A DNA stretch of 56,899 bases from a virus. Location of the stretch: the IMG/VR virus record IMGVR_UViG_3300021378_000028, positions 1-56,899 of that record, one strand, 5' to 3'. The notes under the pieces are model-generated. The model did not search any database. It saw only the letters and a list, made by a program, of their open reading frames with translations, and was not told the origin of the DNA. Shown piece by piece: positions 14,862-44,947 of this stretch. How positions within the stretch are numbered: the first letter of the stretch is position 1; each line of letters starts with the position of its first letter. A program made the translations under genes and the position numbers.

Positions 14862-15332
14862 TTAAGGTTGAATAGCCGTATTAAACGCTTGAGCATACAT
14901 CACTGTTATAACAACTGATCCCGCATTCGTACCTGCGCTTGAGGTAGCTGTTAATTTCAAATCAGATGTACCAGTGTTTTTCCATGTAAGTGTACCACCG
15001 CCAGAAGCACCTAACGCTTTAATGCCTACGGTAGTTCCAGAAGCAACCGCATTAACGAGAGTTGCTGCGCCGCCTACAGTATCACCAACACTAATATTTG
15101 TTGTGGTGTTAGCCGCCACTTCTAAATCAATAATTATATCTACGATTTTTGAGTTGGCAGGGATTACTACATTTGTGGCTTCTGCTGCGACAGCGCCGCC
15201 AGAAATATCCATTACATGTTGTTGAGTCATTACAACATAACCTACGTTTGCTATGTCTGACCCAACAGTAGTGCCCGTTGTGTTGCGAATGTTACCAGCC
15301 CGAATAGGACCTGAAAAAGTTGTCGTACCCAT
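14862..15332 (-). CDS. Putative capsid-associated structural protein
   Basis: The 156-aa protein is Ala/Gly/Thr/Ser-rich with long beta stretches (GTTTFSGPIRAGNIRNTTGT and AAEATNVVIPANSKIVDIII). It lies first after the major capsid terminator, with a clear GGAG site. The sequence is typical of decoration or head-fibre-type proteins, which I infer; no signature is decisive. Confidence 0.72.
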   Translation of the reverse strand: MGTTTFSGPIRAGNIRNTTGTTVGSDIANVGYVVMTQQHVMDISGGAVAAEATNVVIPANSKIVDIIIDLEVAANTTTNISVGDTVGGAATLVNAVASGTTVGIKALGASGGGTLTWKNTGTSDLKLTATSSAGTNAGSVVITVMYAQAFNTAIQP

Positions 15333-15403
15333 GTTGATCTCCTGTCTGGGTTAGTCAGCCACACCATGCGACTGTCAGGGATACTAAAACAATACATGAG
15401 ATC

Positions 15404-16409: not shown

Positions 16410-17045
16410 TTAAACGCCAGTAGTCGATGGAGTACCAGCAACAATCGCGCCGTTGGCGGAGTTGAAACTGTTATTCAATCGAACAATTACAGGGATACCA
16501 GCCGCAGTAAAGTCTGCATTTTCTGGGTCATTTTGAATACCCATAATACGCAGTTGCAATGCTGCCGTGGCGGCGATTGTGCTAACACCCAACTTAGCAG
16601 ATGAGATACCTGTGGTTGAAGAACCAGAAGCACCAGCCGCAAAGTTTGCGTTTGCGAACACATGACCCCGCGCAGTTGCTTCGCTAGTTAGTGAAGCGTC
16701 TGAGCAGATAACAAATGTCTGCATTGGGTTGTCATACACGAAGGCTTTGACGGGATGATTAGAATCCGCGCCAGAACCGGGCCAGCTATTTGAGAAAATA
16801 GTCTCACCAGTGGTGGACGATACATATTCGCATCCCCAGAACACACCAAGTAGACCTACCGTTCCACCAGCAGCCGCGCCAACAATATCAATAAAGCCTG
16901 TTGACAGCGGAATTACGGGTGAACCTTGGTAAATCGCGTTAGTGTTTCCAGAGGCGATACGATACTCGGTCGCACCAGTGGTGTTTGTAGCCTGACCGAC
17001 TACACCAATCGGACGAAGTCCGAAAGCACCGTTACTGTTTGCCAT
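16410..17045 (-). CDS. Putative capsid decoration / minor head protein
   Basis: A 211-aa protein beginning MANSNGAFGLRPIGVVGQATN, with NAIYQGSPVIPLSTGF and ASLTSEATARGHVFAN. The sequence is beta-rich with many Ala, Gly, Ser and Asn. It lies just upstream of the capsid gene, which fits a head decoration or vertex protein. I have no motif for assignment beyond the structural context. Confidence 0.75.
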   Translation of the reverse strand: MANSNGAFGLRPIGVVGQATNTTGATEYRIASGNTNAIYQGSPVIPLSTGFIDIVGAAAGGTVGLLGVFWGCEYVSSTTGETIFSNSWPGSGADSNHPVKAFVYDNPMQTFVICSDASLTSEATARGHVFANANFAAGASGSSTTGISSAKLGVSTIAATAALQLRIMGIQNDPENADFTAAGIPVIVRLNNSFNSANGAIVAGTPSTTGV

Positions 17046-17064: not shown

Positions 17065-17523
17065 TTAGTCGGAGTCTCTACGAGAACCTCCGAACGATAC
17101 ACGACTTTGCCGACTATTACTTATCGGCATAGAAGGATGTTGTTCCTTCATAAGGTCCTGATCTACAGCAGTCATTTGTTCGCGGGTTCTGCCCCCGTAA
17201 TATGCAGTTCTTTCTGCTACTGTTTCAACAGGTATACGGCACAGCATCAGTCCGCCTTGTCCTATTACACCCTCGTAACGACCATCGTCGATAACGGGAG
17301 CTTCATAGTTTGGATATTCATCTTTCCGGACAGGTTCCCATCCTTCTCGTAGCTTGGCATTGACATTCATTTTGTCTTCCTCACCACGCATTGCAACTCG
17401 TATCCAACGATGCACAAACCCCTCTGGGGCATCAGGTGCTGCAAGGTGACTGGGCGGCGCCCAGGGTTTTCTGCGCGAGTCTAGTTCGCGTGTTTCGCTT
17501 GCGCGAGATTTTCTGTCAGTCAT
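17065..17523 (-). CDS. 152-aa conserved capsid-region protein
   Basis: Starts MTDRKSRASETRELDSRRKPWAPP and carries GFVHRWIRVAMRGEEDKMNV and GGLMLCRIPVETVAERTAYY. Proteins of this pattern accompany the scaffold and capsid genes in many marine phages. It is basic and partly disordered at both ends (a Ser/Arg-rich tail). It might be a capsid assembly or minor head factor. Function unknown. Confidence 0.78.
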   Translation of the reverse strand: MTDRKSRASETRELDSRRKPWAPPSHLAAPDAPEGFVHRWIRVAMRGEEDKMNVNAKLREGWEPVRKDEYPNYEAPVIDDGRYEGVIGQGGLMLCRIPVETVAERTAYYGGRTREQMTAVDQDLMKEQHPSMPISNSRQSRVSFGGSRRDSD

Positions 17524-31524: not shown

Positions 31525-31571
31525 CACATAAGAATCCCCTGGCTCTTGGGCTAATGAGCCTCTTTCCTTCG

Positions 31572-31599
31572 GGCCCAGGTGCGCAGCGCCTGGGCCTTT
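31572..31599 (+). terminator. Rho-independent terminator
   Basis: GGCCCAGG-TGCGCAGCG-CCTGGGCC is a perfect 8-bp stem with TTT after it. It closes the 31219 gene's transcript and precedes the first GCGCAGG repeat cluster. Confidence 0.65.
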
Positions 31600-31609
31600 G
31601 GCGTTCGGG

Positions 31610-31669
31610 CCGCAGGGCGCAAGGCGCAAGGCTCGCTCCGCTCGCAAAAAATATGTCAAGGCGCAGGAC
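31610..31669. repeat. GCGCAGG repeat cluster 1
   Basis: Repeated GCGCAGG/GCGCAAGG elements (CCGCAGGGCGCAAGGCGCAAGG, with CAAGGCGCAGGACC after a short A-rich gap) lie between genes. The same type of cluster recurs at 32293-32351 and 33183-33276. No coding frame is convincing here. Confidence 0.75.
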
Positions 31670-31670
31670 C

Positions 31671-31698
31671 GTTGCCACTTGGCAACCTTTGGCAAGTG
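31671..31698 (+). promoter_or_regulatory. Two mutually exclusive hairpins
   Basis: GTTGCC-ACTT-GGCAAC (31671-31686) and CACTTG (31676) pairing with CAAGTG (about 31693) share bases, so both cannot form at once. This gives a possible attenuator or binding-controlled switch just upstream of the candidate promoter at 31711. Confidence 0.35.
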
Positions 31699-31710
31699 AC
31701 AAATAACTTG

Positions 31711-31762
31711 TTGACAGCTTGTTTGCTATATGCGAAGATGGGTCATAGGCAATCAGGCCTAT
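31711..31762 (+). promoter_or_regulatory. Promoter candidate with leader hairpin
   Basis: TTGACA at 31711-31716 is a consensus -35 box. A TATATG follows ten bases later, too close for a standard -10; GCTATATGCGA (31724-31734) recurs in the divergent region. Further down, ATAGGC (31745) pairs with GCCTAT (31757) as a leader hairpin before the GGAAAG site of the 31782 gene. This is the best promoter-like site in the early arm. Confidence 0.45.
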
Positions 31763-31781
31763 CTCAACAAGGAAAGATGTT

Positions 31782-31997
31782 ATGAGAAAATCTTACGTTT
31801 CAGAAACTACCCTGAAGGTTCAAGTCGAAATCGATCTGGGCGAAATCGAAAACCTGATCAGCAGCTTGAGCGATCTGGACACCGCGGAAGGTAAAAACTA
31901 CCGCGCCAAAGAACTGGTAACAAAATTGCAAAAGCTCAAGCGCGAAGCAGCCGAGGAAGCGCGGCGCGGGTTTGAGCGGATGTTAGAGCAATCTTAA
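31782..31997 (+). CDS. 71-aa coiled-coil protein
   Basis: MRKSYVSETTLKVQVEIDLG starts a beta segment followed by a charged helix (YRAKELVTKLQKLKREAAEE), probably a coiled coil. Good ribosome binding site (AAGGAAAG). It is followed directly by a strong terminator, so it is a one-gene transcript. Function unknown. Confidence 0.72.
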   Translation: MRKSYVSETTLKVQVEIDLGEIENLISSLSDLDTAEGKNYRAKELVTKLQKLKREAAEEARRGFERMLEQS

Positions 31998-32005
31998 TTA
32001 GGGAG

Positions 32006-32033
32006 GGGCGGGCCAATAAGCCCGCCCATTTTT
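32006..32033 (+). terminator. Strong terminator
   Basis: GGGCGGGC-CAATAA-GCCCGCCC is a perfect 8-bp GC stem followed by ATTTTTT. It ends the transcript of the 31782 gene. The ATG of the next gene begins at 32035, within or at the end of the U-run. Confidence 0.88.
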
Positions 32034-32034
32034 T

Positions 32035-32229
32035 ATGGCACATGGAGATCCAGCAGATCGAGGCGGCGCCGATGCTTACTATGGCAGGCTAGTCGATCCG
32101 CATTACTGGCCCGAGGGAACGTACAACGGAACCCGGATCGAGCGAGACAAGATGACTAAAACCCAGATAGAAGACTATCTCAAAGCTTACGAAAAGCAGG
32201 ACTTCTTTAAAGACTGGGGATATGAATGA
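32035..32229 (+). CDS. 64-aa conserved phage protein
   Basis: MAHGDPADRGGADAYYGRLV..., with WPEGTYNGTRIERD and EDYLKAYEKQDFFKDWGYE. This pattern (GGADxYYGR...PH...GTY) matches a small conserved phage protein I recognise, which supports the frame. Its ATG starts two bases after the terminator at 32006-32033, so no Shine-Dalgarno fits and it may be translated as a leaderless or read-through mRNA. Confidence 0.65.
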   Translation: MAHGDPADRGGADAYYGRLVDPHYWPEGTYNGTRIERDKMTKTQIEDYLKAYEKQDFFKDWGYE

Positions 32230-32233
32230 CGCC

Positions 32234-32254
32234 AGGGCCCTTCGGGGCCCTTTC
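32234..32254 (+). terminator. TTCG-loop terminator
   Basis: AGGGCCC-TTCG-GGGCCCT (32234-32251) is a 7-bp stem, TTCG loop. It nests within a larger CGCCAGGGC/GCCCTGGCG pairing (32230-32270). It follows the stop at 32229 and precedes repeat cluster 2. Confidence 0.65.
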
Positions 32255-32292
32255 GCGTCGCGCCCTGGCGCTGCGACGTAAAACAGAAAAGA

Positions 32293-32351
32293 CAAGGCGC
32301 AGGGCGCAGGGCGCAAGGCGCAGGATCGACGCGCAGGACGCAAGGCGCAGG
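32293..32351. repeat. GCGCAGG repeat cluster 2
   Basis: Four to six copies of GGCGCAGG, GGCGCAAGG and GACGCAAGG in tandem, including TCGACGCGCAGGACGC (32326-32341), which is repeated exactly in cluster 3 at 33248-33263. It lies directly upstream of a promoter-like TTGCGG...TAAACT before the 32423 gene. Confidence 0.78.
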
Positions 32352-32422
32352 AAAAATAAAACTTGCGGACCACTTACAATCTGCTAAACTCTAAGCATTC
32401 AACAGAGAAGGAAACAAACACC

Positions 32423-33103
32423 ATGAAAAGCGCAATCATCTACAACGGGCCAAGCCTATTGGATGGAAAGCCAATCGTCGTTATCGCGACATATTCAAAC
32501 CGCAACACCAAAACGGGGACGGTCGTGCAAACTTACATCTTGTGCCGCGACACAAACCCGCTCGAAGCTTCAAAGACTGGCGCAGACTTTTCAATTTGCG
32601 GCGATTGCACCATGCGCGGCGAAGTAACAACGGACCCGCAACGCAAGCAAGCAAAAGGGCGCCGCTGTTATGTTAACTTAGGGCAAGGCGTCTTGATTGT
32701 TTGGAAAGCATTCCAGCGTGGCGTATATAAAGACGGGCCCGCTCGGGTCATGGGCCGCGGTCGTTTCGTTCGCGTCGGGACATACGGCGATCCCGCGGCG
32801 GTCCCGTCCCACGTTTGGGACGAGCTTCTAAGTGAAGCGGACACTTGGACCGCTTATAGCCACCAATCCGGATTCCGCCCCGACATCGCGATGCAATCCG
32901 CCGACGACCACGCGCAAGCGGTCGCGCATTGGAAACAAGGACACCGGACATTCCGAGTAATCGCGGATCTAGGCGACCTAGACAAGGCGAACGAGGCCCT
33001 TTGCCCCGCGTCAAAAGAAGCTGGACGCCGCGTCCAGTGCACAGCATGCAAATTGTGCAAGGGATCCAGCCTAGCAAAATCAATCGCGATTGTGGAACAC
33101 TAA
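32423..33103 (+). CDS. 226-aa protein with Cys pairs
   Basis: Started at MKSAIIYNGPSLLDGKPIVV after an AGGAAAC leader; an upstream start at 32363 would begin in the promoter. Cysteines occur as CGDCTMRG and CTACKLC, likely a split zinc site. GC content is visibly higher than in the neighbours (GGCGATCCCGCGGCGGTCCC), which suggests a different origin. Motifs such as VIVWKAFQRGVYKD and RVGTYGDPAAVPSHVW are familiar from phage genomes but of unknown function. Confidence 0.72.
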   Translation: MKSAIIYNGPSLLDGKPIVVIATYSNRNTKTGTVVQTYILCRDTNPLEASKTGADFSICGDCTMRGEVTTDPQRKQAKGRRCYVNLGQGVLIVWKAFQRGVYKDGPARVMGRGRFVRVGTYGDPAAVPSHVWDELLSEADTWTAYSHQSGFRPDIAMQSADDHAQAVAHWKQGHRTFRVIADLGDLDKANEALCPASKEAGRRVQCTACKLCKGSSLAKSIAIVEH

Positions 33104-33104
33104 C

Positions 33105-33128
33105 AAAAGGGGCTTCGGCCCCTTTTTT
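33105..33128 (+). terminator. Rho-independent terminator with TTCG loop
   Basis: AAAAGGGGC-TTCG-GCCCCTTTT followed by T-rich sequence: a near-ideal terminator directly after the stop at 33103. Confidence 0.9.
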
Positions 33129-33180
33129 ATTTGTCCAACGCGCCGCTGCGCCTTGCACCGCGGACCGCGGACCGATAACA

Positions 33181-33591
33181 TCAAGGCGCAGGGCGCAGGA
33201 TACCTTCCAAAACAGGGCGCAGGGCGCAGAACAAGGACGCAGGACTGTCGACGCGCAGGACGCAGGGCGCAAGGCACCCCTGCTCAAGGACCGCGGGCCC
33301 CTGATTCCCCCCAAATAAAAGTATATCACGCTCCTTGGCCCTCTTTACCAAGAAGAAATTCGCCCCGCCACGAGCCCAATATGCCATATTCCAAGCAACT
33401 TGATGAGGCGAGAGTTTTATTGCGTTGGAGTTCGCTACCTTCAATTCCATCCAGAAGGGTAAACCGTCCCATACCAAATGGACATCAGGCACCCCGCCAC
33501 CGTGCTTGTTTTCAATCCTTGTCGCGAAGCAGTTCTTCGGAAGGTTTGTCCTCAATGAGTTCCAAAAGTTCGCCTCCGGCCCCTTGCTCAT
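33181..33591 (-). CDS. PD-(D/E)XK resolvase-like nuclease
   Basis: The 136-aa protein has FWNSLRTNLPKN near residues 9-20, then GGGVPDVHLV (Pro35-Asp36) and FWMELKVA (Glu49, Lys51) followed by SPHQVAW (Gln64), the PD...ExK core of VRR-NUC and phage Holliday-junction resolvases. Residues from about 95 on (GPAVLEQGCLAPCVLRVDSP...) lie in repeat cluster 3 and look like read-through. It overlaps the small terminase 3' end by 80 bases. Likely resolves branched DNA before packaging. Confidence 0.8.
   Translation of the reverse strand: MSKGPEANFWNSLRTNLPKNCFATRIENKHGGGVPDVHLVWDGLPFWMELKVANSNAIKLSPHQVAWNMAYWARGGANFFLVKRAKERDILLFGGNQGPAVLEQGCLAPCVLRVDSPASLFCALRPVLEGILRPAP
33183..33276. repeat. GCGCAGG repeat cluster 3, overlapping a gene end
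   Basis: AAGGCGCAGGGCGCAGG, then AGGGCGCAGGGCGCAG, TCGACGCGCAGGACGC and GCAGGGCGCAAGGC in order. The cluster lies within the 3' end of the minus-strand resolvase gene and lengthens its reading frame. It sits downstream of a terminator like the other two. Confidence 0.78.
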
Positions 33592-34186
33592 CTGGTGTGA
33601 TATCCTTTGCTGTTCCTTCTATCACAAAAGCTTGCGGGTATTGCTTTTGCAACGCCGCCAAACGGGCAGTGATCTCATCCCGTGACATCTGGTCTATGGT
33701 GTTGATCTGCTCCCGCCTATCGACAGTCAAGCCACCCAACGCGGAGCGGATCTTCTCGGCATTGATAGCCGCAGAAAACTGGCCCGCCTCTTCGGCGCCC
33801 GCTGACAGTTGATACAGCCGTTGAAGCTGACCGATAGTGGAGACACCATAACGCCGCTGTCGCTCCTCTCGGAGCTCGGTTACATACTCCAAAACGTGCG
33901 GGTAGTCTCTTCCATTAAGAAGCTTGGACGCACTGGTGTTGGCAACCTCGGCAGAATAACCTGCCTTGCGGGCTGCTTCGGCGTTTGAGTATATGCCCTC
34001 GACAATGTGCCTTGCGAAGGTGCGTTGTCGGTTGGTCAGCGTCCGACCATGTTCCTCTTCGATCTTCTGTTCAAGCTTTCCCATGGTCACCCCGTTGTTG
34101 TTATCCAACAATCTATACCAAGTGATTGGCTCTTTCAACTTTCCTATATAGCGATTTTTTCCCAGCGAAGTGTCATCAGATGTCAT
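33512..34186 (-). CDS. terS: Small terminase subunit
   Basis: The 224-aa protein has an N-terminal HTH region: LTNRQRTFARHIVEGIYSNA (about 50-70), then EAARKAGYSAEVANTSASKL and SKLLNGRDYPHVLEYVTELR, the small-terminase pattern (LTxxQxxFxxxY...NAxxAAxxAGYS). The middle is helical and the C-terminus acidic. It recognises packaging sites and would recruit the large terminase (24882). It is on the minus strand within the early arm; its start codon lies inside the left arm of a repeat array (34171-34258). Confidence 0.85.
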   Translation of the reverse strand: MTSDDTSLGKNRYIGKLKEPITWYRLLDNNNGVTMGKLEQKIEEEHGRTLTNRQRTFARHIVEGIYSNAEAARKAGYSAEVANTSASKLLNGRDYPHVLEYVTELREERQRRYGVSTIGQLQRLYQLSAGAEEAGQFSAAINAEKIRSALGGLTVDRREQINTIDQMSRDEITARLAALQKQYPQAFVIEGTAKDITPDEQGAGGELLELIEDKPSEELLRDKD

Positions 34187-34258
34187 CAGGTGTCATCACT
34201 TCTGGGCTGTTTAAGCACTGTAAATAAGGGGGTGATGACAGTGATGACGGTGATGACA
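34171..34258. repeat. Six TGTCATCA/TGATGACA boxes in inverted arms
   Basis: The left arm has TGTCATCA at 34171, 34181 and 34191 (10-bp spacing). The right arm has TGATGACA at 34233, TGATGACG at 34242 and TGATGACA at 34251 (9-bp spacing). Together they make an inverted pair of triple direct repeats around a 34-bp AT-containing gap. It overlaps the small-terminase start. Likely a protein-binding site: pac site, origin or operator. Confidence 0.85.
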
Positions 34259-42015: not shown

Positions 42016-42573
42016 ATGAGCGATATATTTGAAGACTTATACGACGAATCGGAGGCGCTCGCGTCTGTCGATACTGGAACCGGAAAGAAGTTAAGTCAAC
42101 TGGTTCGTAAACTTCGCGCTGTTGAGAAAGAGATCAGCGATGCGGAGGACCACATTAAAGCTATGAAGCAAGAGAAGCACAAGCTTTCGGTCGAGAACAT
42201 CCCCGCCTTAATGGATGAGATGGGCGTCGAGCGTTTGGATGTGGACGGCTCTGTTGTGGAGCGCAAGATGATTGTTGCTGCGTCGATACCTGCGGCAAAC
42301 AAAGAGGCCGCGTTTGATTGGCTTCGGTCCAATGGCTTGGATGACATCATCAAGAATGACATCACCGTGTCCTTTGGTAAGGGCGAGGATAATGTAGCGG
42401 GCGACGTTGTCGGACTGCTGCAAGAGCGTGGCTTCGATCCGAAGACCAAGACCCACGTTCACCCTTCTACACTCAAAGCCTTCGTTAAGGAGCGCGTGAT
42501 AGAAGGTAAGCCGATTGATCTCGATTTGTTCGGGGCTTTCATTTCCAATACAGCACAAATCCGGAGGAAGTAA
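42016..42573 (+). CDS. 185-aa coiled-coil protein of the replication cassette
   Basis: From MSDIFEDLYDESEALASVDT (AGAGGAAAA leader). Residues about 30-65, LRAVEKEISDAEDHIKAMKQ followed by EKHKL, form a coiled coil; the rest is mixed with VGLLQERGFDPKTKTHVHPS. I recall conserved relatives adjacent to phage SSB and SNF2 genes without an assigned function. First gene of the replication operon. Confidence 0.72.
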   Translation: MSDIFEDLYDESEALASVDTGTGKKLSQLVRKLRAVEKEISDAEDHIKAMKQEKHKLSVENIPALMDEMGVERLDVDGSVVERKMIVAASIPAANKEAAFDWLRSNGLDDIIKNDITVSFGKGEDNVAGDVVGLLQERGFDPKTKTHVHPSTLKAFVKERVIEGKPIDLDLFGAFISNTAQIRRK

Positions 42574-42574
42574 T

Positions 42575-43366
42575 ATGGGTGCCGTAGCTAAGAAAAAAAG
42601 TGCAGAGTTAAGCACAGATGTCATGGATGACATCCTAGAGTTTGCTGGAGAGGGCGCCGCCTTTGACAGTTCTGAAATGCAGATCCCGTTTGTTCGTATC
42701 CTGCAAGCGATGTCCCCGCAGCTAAACAAGCGCGAGGCCAGTCACATCAAGGGTTCGGAGCAAGGTGATTTGTTTAACAACGTCACCATGGAACTGTTCA
42801 CAGGAGAGGACGGGGTCACTGTGATCCCCTGCTACCAGACTGTTAAGTACCTGGAGTTCGTTCCTCGGGATCAAGGTGGTGGTTTCCAAGGAGAGATTGC
42901 TGCAACCGATCCTGTGTTGCAACAGACTTCGCGCTCGGGATCCAAGGAGATCCTGCCCAACGGCAATGAGTTGGTCAAATCTGATCAGCACTTCTGCTTA
43001 CTGATTGGTGAGGACGGGATCACGCAACCTGTTGTGATCGACATGAAGTCTAGCCAGTTAAAGGTCAGCCGTCGTTGGAAGACCCAGATTGCGATGCAAA
43101 AGGTTAAGCATCCAAAGACAGGGCAGATGGTTCTGCCACCCCTGTTTGCTACGATCTGGAAGTTCAGCACTGTTGAAGAGAGCAATGACCAAGGTACATG
43201 GTTCAACTATCAGATCGAGAAGGTCGGGTTGGTTGATAGCCGTGATCTAATGCTTGAGGCCAAAGCCTTCCGCGACAGTGTCGCTGCGGGCGAAGTGAAA
43301 GCTGCACCGGAGGAAGGGGCTTCCACTCCCACTCCTCCGTTGAAGGATGATGAAATCCCCTTCTAG
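42575..43366 (+). CDS. Single-stranded DNA-binding protein (SSB-like)
   Basis: From MGAVAKKKSAELSTDVMDDI, one base after the previous stop, 263 aa. The C-terminus is acidic and Pro/Asp-rich and ends DDEIPF, nearly the E. coli SSB tip DDDIPF that recruits replication partners. The core (EMQIPFVRILQAMSPQLNKR, VIPCYQTVKYLEFV) is beta-rich as in phage ssDNA-binding proteins. It would coat DNA at forks with the following primase. Confidence 0.8.
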   Translation: MGAVAKKKSAELSTDVMDDILEFAGEGAAFDSSEMQIPFVRILQAMSPQLNKREASHIKGSEQGDLFNNVTMELFTGEDGVTVIPCYQTVKYLEFVPRDQGGGFQGEIAATDPVLQQTSRSGSKEILPNGNELVKSDQHFCLLIGEDGITQPVVIDMKSSQLKVSRRWKTQIAMQKVKHPKTGQMVLPPLFATIWKFSTVEESNDQGTWFNYQIEKVGLVDSRDLMLEAKAFRDSVAAGEVKAAPEEGASTPTPPLKDDEIPF

Positions 43367-43420: not shown

Positions 43421-44947
43421 ATGTCACAATCTAAAAAACTGCTTGCCGCGTTTGCCGGAGCCAAGAATGCTCACGGCACGACATCCGTAGGTCGGATAGG
43501 TCGGAACGGTAAGGCAGACTCAAAGAGTAAGATCATACGAGAGCCGCTGACAGATGCGCTAGTCAAAGCGCACATCAAGGGCGAGCAGGGGGTCGGGGCC
43601 ATTCCGATCAACGAAGACAACCAATGTCGGTTCGGTGCTATAGATGTGGATGTCTATGATCTGAACCAGAAAGAAATGCAGGACAAGATCCAGAAGCTCA
43701 AGCTTCCGTTGCTGCATTGCAGATCTAAGTCCGGAGGCGCCCATCTCTATTTGTTTCTCAAGGAGTGGGAGCAAGCAGCCGTGGTCCGAGAATACCTGAC
43801 CGAGATGTCGATCATGCTTGGGCACAGTGGCGTTGAGATTTTTCCAAAGCAGGACACGATCATTGCCGAGCGCGGTGATGTTGGCAACTTTATAAACATG
43901 CCGTACTTCAATGCGGAAACTCCGCAGCGGTATTGCTACAATCCCAATGGCGAGGCCATGGAACTGGATGAGTTCTTGGATGCGGTGGAGAAGAACCGGG
44001 TTGAGTTGGCTGACTTGGAAGCTTTGCGCAGCACGACCAAGGTTCGCAAGCACTTCGACGATGGGCCTCCCTGCATACGCAACATCTTTTCGGACGGGCC
44101 ACAGAGCGAGCCGAGGAACAAGCTTTTGTTTTTCATAGGTGTGTACTGCAAGAAGAAGTTTCCGGATAGTTGGCAAGCCTCCCTGGAGGAATACAACCGA
44201 ACGTTATTCTCTCCACCCCTTCCATCCTCAGAAGTGCTGACCGTAATCAAACAGCACGAGAAGAAAGACTGGGGGTACACCTGTAAGGACGAGCCGTTCA
44301 AGTCATACTGCGATCCATCTCTGTGCGTCTTGGCAAAGCACGGGATCAGCGATGATGCGCCTGATGCACCGCAGGTTGGCGGGCTGACGATCATGTTGTC
44401 TGAGCCTCGGTTGTATTTCATGGATGTAAACGGGTTGCGGATTCAGTTGAGCTCAGAGCAGTTGCAGAATCAAACGCTCTGGCAGCGAGCTTGCATGGAG
44501 CAGTGTAACTTTATGCCGCCGACTACTAAGCCACAGAAGTGGCAGCAGATGGTCAACAGTTTGATGAGCCAAGCAACGTACATCGATGTGCCGTATGAGG
44601 AGACGATTGCGGGTCAATTCAAGGAGCACTTGTTTGCCTACTGCACCAGTCACATTCGTGCCATGGCTCCAGAAGAAATCGAGATGAATAAACCGTGGAC
44701 CGATGGTGGTGTGACGAAGTTTAAGTTGGAAGGCCTGTTGGAGTATCTGCACCATCGAAGGTTTGTTGGTCAGACCCGAGCGCACATTATTCAGATGATA
44801 CGGGACATGGGCGGCGACAATGGAGTGCAGAATATAGTAAAAGCCAAAGGGAAGCGGACAAACATCCGATGTTGGTACGTCCCTGCTTTTGAAGAAGATG
44901 AAACCGAATTGCCTGTGAAGGAGATATCAAATGACATCCCATTCTAA
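43421..44947 (+). CDS. AEP-type DNA primase
   Basis: 508 aa. Motif I is FGAIDVDVY (Asp75, Asp77) and motif II SKSGGAHLYLF (His108), the catalytic core of archaeo-eukaryotic primases such as PrimPol and TOTE primases. VEIFPKQ supplies the third acidic site. A Cys-containing segment near residue 290-310 (YTCKDEPFKSYCDPSLC) may bind zinc. It ends KEISNDIPF, an SSB-tail-like tip. The C-terminal ~200 aa may be a helicase-loading region; not defined. Confidence 0.85.
   Translation: MSQSKKLLAAFAGAKNAHGTTSVGRIGRNGKADSKSKIIREPLTDALVKAHIKGEQGVGAIPINEDNQCRFGAIDVDVYDLNQKEMQDKIQKLKLPLLHCRSKSGGAHLYLFLKEWEQAAVVREYLTEMSIMLGHSGVEIFPKQDTIIAERGDVGNFINMPYFNAETPQRYCYNPNGEAMELDEFLDAVEKNRVELADLEALRSTTKVRKHFDDGPPCIRNIFSDGPQSEPRNKLLFFIGVYCKKKFPDSWQASLEEYNRTLFSPPLPSSEVLTVIKQHEKKDWGYTCKDEPFKSYCDPSLCVLAKHGISDDAPDAPQVGGLTIMLSEPRLYFMDVNGLRIQLSSEQLQNQTLWQRACMEQCNFMPPTTKPQKWQQMVNSLMSQATYIDVPYEETIAGQFKEHLFAYCTSHIRAMAPEEIEMNKPWTDGGVTKFKLEGLLEYLHHRRFVGQTRAHIIQMIRDMGGDNGVQNIVKAKGKRTNIRCWYVPAFEEDETELPVKEISNDIPF

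Follow-up and report, generated by a model that had tools for sequence, protein, structure and literature searches.

Directional heptamer arrays joined to predicted promoters and hairpins beside a nuclease gene in a lineage of marine phages

Repetitive extragenic palindromic (REP) elements and bacterial interspersed mosaic elements (BIMEs) are found after terminators and between convergent genes. The composite promoter-stem-loop motifs known as PeSL are reportedly reused before different genes of a variable region. For the PeSL of T4-like phages, the parts of PMC4503421 that deal with them propose a role in mediating modular shuffling. In bacteria, heptameric repeats are described as over-represented in intergenic DNA, with GGGAATC in Xanthomonas, GGGGA(T/C)T in Nostoc and TAACTGA in Beggiatoaceae, and polymerase slippage has been proposed as their origin (relevant portions of PMC4692102 and PMC4679880). 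Heptameric direct repeats also occur at Streptomyces promoters, where they are binding sites of SARP-type regulators, according to the passages of PMC5930380 on these sites. Our literature search found no work on tandem repeats in pelagiphage intergenic DNA or on heptanucleotide arrays of phage genomes, and the sections on heptameric repeats at bacteriophage promoters that it covered held nothing on phage arrays. Here, we describe three heptamer arrays in the IMG/VR virus record IMGVR_UViG_3300021378_000028, a single record whose 56,899 bases are called the window below. On a narrow balance of probability, these arrays belong to array-promoter-terminator cassettes that set the expression of small transcription units and allow their exchange.

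A preliminary description of the window had pointed to three repeat clusters, which are indeed present and above chance: for GGCGCAGG, 2.07 occurrences are expected in the window and 13 are present, eight of them inside the clusters, all on the plus strand. The clusters are imperfect tandem arrays of a 7-bp unit with the core CGCA[A/G]G, all on the plus strand. Array 1 (31610-31669) consists of three tandem CGCA[A/G]GG units at 31611-31632 and a separate unit at 31660, array 2 (32293-32352) of seven to eight imperfect units, and array 3 (33183-33276) of seven units, nearly all of them in the 3′ coding end of a nuclease gene (33181-33591, minus strand, 136 amino acids (aa)) to which they run antisense. 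Clusters 2 and 3 had been credited with an exact 16-mer; they do share sequence, but their longest common stretch is 18 nt, as it also is for clusters 1 and 2. The terminator hairpin expected ahead of each cluster was found as a strong plus-strand fold: the terminator-like T1 (31571-31605; -25.6 kcal/mol for 31560-31605), T2 (32230-32271; -25.0 kcal/mol for 32229-32275) and T3 (33105-33126; -13.6 kcal/mol), of which a consensus terminator scan lists the third only. At sites 1 and 2 the order is hairpin, array and promoter, each array lying between the hairpin and a predicted sigma-70-like promoter. Array 1 is followed on the plus strand by a candidate promoter (31711-31739; TTGACA, 17 nt and a weak -10 box GAAGAT) and a 71-aa open reading frame (ORF) without family match (31782-31997). 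Array 2 is separated by 10 bp from the -35 box of a second predicted promoter downstream (32363-32390, plus strand; TTGCGG, 16 nt and the extended -10 box TGCTAAACT), recognised by upstream alignment and kept among relatives. This promoter belongs to a 226-aa gene (32423-33103, plus strand; phrog_2554/DUF7227-like), called the slot gene below, which is convergent with the nuclease gene.

How widely is this arrangement kept? By terminase, the closest named relatives of the window are 023Pt_psg01, the Pelagibacter phages HTVC027P and HTVC023P, and DSL-LC04, thus the HTVC023P type and its neighbours, and its phage belongs to a lineage of marine phages of about 57-60 kb related to the HTVC023P type. 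Scans with the nuclease protein kept 80 of 528 relatives in the window's group, 80 of 98 among HTVC027P-type pelagiphages and 80 of 210 among DSL-LC04-type freshwater phages, and arrays were counted at every locus found in this way that extends 1 kb or more beyond the 3′ end of the nuclease gene. In the window's group, under selection by the nuclease only, 64 of the 80 loci were usable; 3′ of the nuclease, 51 of these 64 carried an array of any kind and 42 a period-7 array, and among the pelagiphages a period-7 array stood there in 57 of 65 loci. After dinucleotide shuffling there was none at this side of the nuclease, and the remainder of the loci held one in 301 kb (window's group) and four in 351 kb (pelagiphages). 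Period 7 accounted for 62 of 76 arrays in the first group and 128 of 136 in the second. A separate scan with a 20-base array pattern returned 81 stretches, and most of its matches come from the same phage family, with the same boundaries and orientation, down to 39% nuclease identity; over the two scans together, 18 of 154 loci have no nuclease match, and at least five of these 18 carry other genes of the family.

Direction is kept as strictly as position, with unit counts on the two strands of 163:2, 160:1 and 53:5 in the window's group and of 335:0, 302:3 and 209:36 in the pelagiphages. At the location of the window-group arrays, the pelagiphages carry the unit GCTTGNN on the nuclease strand; read on that strand, the words of the two groups are CYTGCGC and CTTGNNG, with the common core C[C/T]TG, as derived from hand-picked lists of 55 and 49 loci, the former also including motif-found loci. 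A G-quadruplex was set aside as the common property, GCTTGNN not being G-tract DNA. The intergenic arrays 1 and 2 vary fast in sequence and copy number, the mostly coding array 3 being the exception, and higher-order tandem copies occur, for instance units of 20-22 bp in L028 and L105. Since the arrays hold their place and direction over deep divergence while their word changes, they look like shared sites of control and of swapping and not like spreading repeats. The earlier view of 'expanding or mobile' repeats thus gives way to arrays that keep their sites and orientation among relatives. The preliminary description had itself named the same sites with a full-length resolvase in every relative as the sign of fixed coding sequence; sites and resolvase are nearly so conserved, but the arrays cannot be called fixed coding sequence, because the intergenic ones change fast.

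The arrays of one genome also resemble each other. Their k-mer spectra were compared in the loci left after dereplication, 31 of 70 in the window's group (motif-found loci included) and 40 of 51 in the pelagiphages, each comparison using the loci with enough units at both sites and P values treating related loci as independent. In the window's group, similarity of the promoter array to the nuclease-coding array was 0.728 within and 0.589 between genomes (n=28, P=0.0002), and that of array 1 to array 2 was 0.716 and 0.492 (n=14, P=0.0002). For the intergenic against the coding part of array 3, the within-genome and between-genome values did not differ significantly (0.658/0.634, n=13, P=0.19), and array 1 could be set against intergenic array 3 in two loci only. 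Within/between values in the pelagiphages were 0.496/0.350, 0.445/0.273 and 0.562/0.476 (n=25 each). That site 2 resembles site 3 of the same genome does not follow from shared descent alone, whereas it could arise from gene conversion or from one factor that reads the word at both sites.

A further feature is the contact of the arrays with promoters. Upstream of the 226-aa gene, relatives share the predicted promoter ACTTGYR ... TGnTAnnnT; in most of them it follows the array at a distance of some 8-20 bp. In the pelagiphages the last heptamer usually runs into TTGACA, the -35 box; a sub-branch such as L224-L240 has a different promoter at that place. The composite (CAAGCNN)3-TTGACA was found at no fewer than 142 sites in at least 120 viral stretches, and at least 121 of the sites have a downstream ORF, these ORFs falling into at least 27 families and at least 60 of them being GP88. 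Among the matches listed, all 13 loci with two composite sites have two different gene families behind them, and TTGACA lies within 75 nt of 52 of 240 pelagiphage array sites versus none of 285 bacterial ones. By these matches the array-promoter composite is tied to phages. In the window's group, arrays with a recognisable promoter stand ahead of at least four gene families; a scan for CGCARG...ATAAAACTTG was too loose there, giving, among the matches listed, 13 composite sites with three or more units against 107 without.

HTVC027P allows the arrays to be set beside expression. Across its genome, period-7 arrays occur at 16497-16646 and 17391-17440 only, and three further units precede gp34; the arrays thus flank gp33 and gp34 only. 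In the infection transcriptome, as far as the relevant parts of PMC12753301 report it, gp33 and gp34 alone form 'extra cluster 2', with high expression at 6-9 h, and the early genes of this phage have no known role. The array-flanked genes are therefore, on that source, exactly the two genes of a separate temporal class. The core promoter TTGACA-N-TATAGGAT is also present at 388 and 19224, without arrays.

What could keep such arrays in place? We propose that the hairpin or terminator, the one-way tandem heptamer array and the sigma-70-like promoter would together make a composite intergenic cassette, which may bound small, independently transcribed units lying antisense between the terminase-small-subunit and nuclease genes and the structural genes. 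At the level of sequence, the comparisons establish where the arrays lie, their strand and their period of 7, their contact with (predicted) promoters and hairpins, their within-genome likeness, their reuse and the ORF exchange. Beyond this, a common trans-acting factor would read the heptamers and set timing. In the pelagiphages a near-consensus promoter has its -35 box overlapped by the array, which would favour repression, insulation or timed shut-off over activation; a classical activator is also disfavoured by the variable distance between array and promoter in the window's group. The shared arrays might also supply homology for ORF swapping, possibly as a second role. The suggestion that the clusters are sites for a DNA-binding protein is compatible with the within-genome likeness, the promoter contact and the separate expression class, although no binding protein was found. 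A fuller version, which we put forward tentatively and regard as a possibility short of probable, is a phage operator system with a lineage-specific heptamer, a co-evolving trans-acting factor, interchangeable cargo genes and a private expression window, in which any gene placed between the arrays would take that timing and the word would extend into resolvase codons. If the arrays do set a separate expression class, they would serve as a sequence tag by which the cargo genes of many uncultured phages can be found, and a testable role would be at hand for the heptameric repeats that have long been recorded in bacteria with no function attached.

The main rival is that the arrays are neutral slippage repeats, tolerated in spacers, whose likeness between sites comes from occasional recombination. 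This is possible, though we hold it to be rather unlikely; it keeps its weight from the prevalence of heptamers among the long repeats of bacteria, in whose spacers they are the commonest long-unit simple repeat according to the parts of PMC4692102 and PMC4679880 on the subject. GCTTGNN arrays are themselves present in at least 118 bacterial stretches, and the higher-order copies of L028 and L105 have the look of slippage. Yet slippage would not be expected to hold boundaries and strand unchanged where the nucleases are 39% identical, to fuse the array to a -35 box before so many gene families but at no bacterial array site among the matches listed, to make a promoter array resemble the coding array of its own genome, or to leave the remainder of the loci nearly free of period-7 arrays. 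As an observation apart, L321-L438 comprise GCTTGNN x4 arrays in many bacterial genomes, often of Pseudomonas, Stutzerimonas and Halomonas.

The gene between the arrays bears on a second rival. Three kinds of protein occupy the slot: P2554 (phrog_2554/DUF7227-like), GP88 (PF17338) and a third that matches GP88 weakly. DUF7227 and GP88 may be distant relatives. In L097 and L129 (GP88), L153 (third protein) and L112 (P2554), the nuclease and terminase region is 82-92% identical; homology covers the array and promoter block to about the start codon and the hairpin and array block after the stop codon, but not the ORF. This exchange of unlike ORFs between homologous, array-bearing flanks, together with the many families behind one composite, is what would be expected if the arrays were pure recombination boundaries, offering only short homology for ORF swapping and having no role in expression, as proposed for PeSL. 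We consider that account quite improbable: in the recent P2554 allele exchange of L003 and L004, the breakpoints lie inside the gene and not at the arrays, a fixed array-promoter contact is not needed for recombination, and gp33 and gp34 form a separate expression class in the parts of PMC12753301 concerned. Recombination of P2554 alleles at the arrays was accordingly dropped for L003/L004, where it was not seen. A model of the 226-aa slot protein (predicted local distance difference test, pLDDT, 87) had no Foldseek match at E<=0.001, and a second structure comparison was led by radical-SAM enzymes (QueE, pyruvate formate-lyase activating enzyme) with Z about 4, too weak to use. Cys-x-x-Cys motifs accompany these weak radical-SAM-like matches. 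The slot protein was also considered as the array-binding factor and found no support in these comparisons, and family and structure searches placed it in no recognised replication initiator family.

Replication origin iterons, or a packaging site read by the adjacent terminase small subunit, would fit the GC-skew sign changes near 30-34 kb and the position of the arrays next to the terminase-small-subunit and nuclease genes. This is very improbable, as the three arrays are spread over 1.7 kb, a promoter goes with two of them, and the composite precedes many genes; moreover, such an array is missing from HTVC023P, which does have a terminase and a nuclease. The nuclease of that genome is diverged, GP88 and P2554 have no match in it, and its three period-7 calls are all A/T-rich. 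Phages of the HTVC023P type are widespread viruses of ocean bacteria (PMC9599517), and the parts of that paper on the phages do not mention intergenic repeats.

The nuclease is Hjc/RecU/VRR_NUC-like, of the PD-(D/E)XK type, and array 3 does lie in the 3′ end of its gene, encoding about residues 107-135. The preliminary description had read these as about 40 aberrant residues of a damaged resolvase. They are instead the normal C-terminus of the family: the protein is full length and aligns with relatives, including array-poor ones that keep a similar LFxALR helix, the model of its array-encoded end shows a helix-strand-helix, with pLDDT of about 90-96 as far as residue 130, and a frameshifted tail occurs in L077 only among 137 loci. 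A damaged nuclease was rejected on the alignment and the confident predicted fold, and the tail is, as modelled, an ordinary, confidently folded C-terminus. Codons in the array-encoded end lean to the repeat word (Leu CTG 38% vs 11%, Arg CGC 43% vs 15%, Ala GCC 39% vs 18%, Cys TGC 91% vs 71%), with no lean for Pro CCC (27% vs 27%). The 3′ end of the gene would thus have taken up the array word within a working C-terminal helix-strand-helix, so that a DNA signal and a conserved protein end use the same bases. Small proteins behind the pelagiphage composite in L520, L526, L506 and L490 have KQAASCKRQAAS-like tails, apparently coded by their own 3′-end arrays, and these tails can be likened to array 3 in the nuclease. 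That a mobile REP-like element has spread across the genome at the cost of the resolvase, as suggested by shared units in intergenic positions after hairpins, is scarcely credible and is contradicted by the conserved positions, there being no spread beyond the sites, no palindrome and an intact nuclease tail that is predicted to fold.

Several observations weigh against cassettes that set expression and allow exchange. The transcriptome suggests the expression link for one phage and two genes. The P2554 breakpoints inside the gene do not fit exchange at arrays, and only 3 of 42 loci had the array and promoter block in duplicate, before two genes of the same genome. The array-to-promoter spacing is not fixed in the window's group, unlike that of a classical activator site. 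Likeness between the promoter array and intergenic array 3 was not significant there (0.663/0.640, n=12, P=0.22), and a composition control, a pair of genes without arrays, also gave a difference, though a far smaller one (0.327/0.308, P=0.0002). All six other phages with a relative of the slot protein (L160, L444-L448) have no array, and the array was rejected as a property of the slot gene family. In the DSL-LC04-type freshwater group no period-7 array lies beside the nuclease in 68 loci and 40 lie elsewhere. Finally, no binding factor was found, and the promoters are predicted ones. In the freshwater loci L243-L318, period-7 arrays with the words ATCACGG and CCGTGGA either precede the nuclease by about 1.3 kb or follow it at a distance of several kb.

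Other features of the window complete its description. Among its gene products are a terminase large subunit, a portal protein and a Mu-gpT-like capsid protein, together with a DNA polymerase of family A, a primase and helicases. The terminase small subunit gene (33512-34186, minus strand) overlaps the start of the nuclease gene by 80 nt. Between it and a divergent 167-aa ORF, 34166-34258 form an operator-like region with another repeat word: direct repeats of TGTCATCAGA at 34171-34198 and GTGATGACA, inverted, at 34232-34258. An Rfam Mu-gpT-DE RNA (15330-15380) directly precedes a small ORF in the capsid region, and a Pam3 gp34-like protein (42515-43366) and an AEP-TOTE-type primase domain (43421-44947) follow in that order.

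How does this locus compare with the systems described before? It shares with PeSL a promoter and a stem-loop in one intergenic element that stands before different genes (at least 27 families in the pelagiphages, at least four in the window's group). As to exchange junctions at the element, L097, L129, L153 and L112 show flank homology, but the L003/L004 allele has its breakpoints inside the gene. Unlike PeSL, its phages are not T4-like, their terminase and capsid relatives being of the HTVC023P type, and the shared part is a heptamer array with a lineage-specific word. With the bacterial heptamers, as the consulted portions of their reports describe them, it has in common tandem 7-bp units in intergenic DNA with variable copy number; it departs from them in the few fixed phage sites, the strict strand, the promoter fusion, the concerted likeness and the one array in a conserved coding end. 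Heptameric direct repeats at a promoter recall the SARP sites, in so far as these are covered by the passages cited above, but here they are contiguous arrays of up to many units, and no SARP protein was found. The arrays were also likened to REP elements, and they do have that position, after terminators and between convergent genes; their units are not palindromic, and a repeat search found no inverted arms within any one array, unlike REP elements and BIMEs. The locus combines heptameric repeats with a PeSL-like promoter-terminator cassette, and it is neither a spreading repeat nor a broken resolvase.

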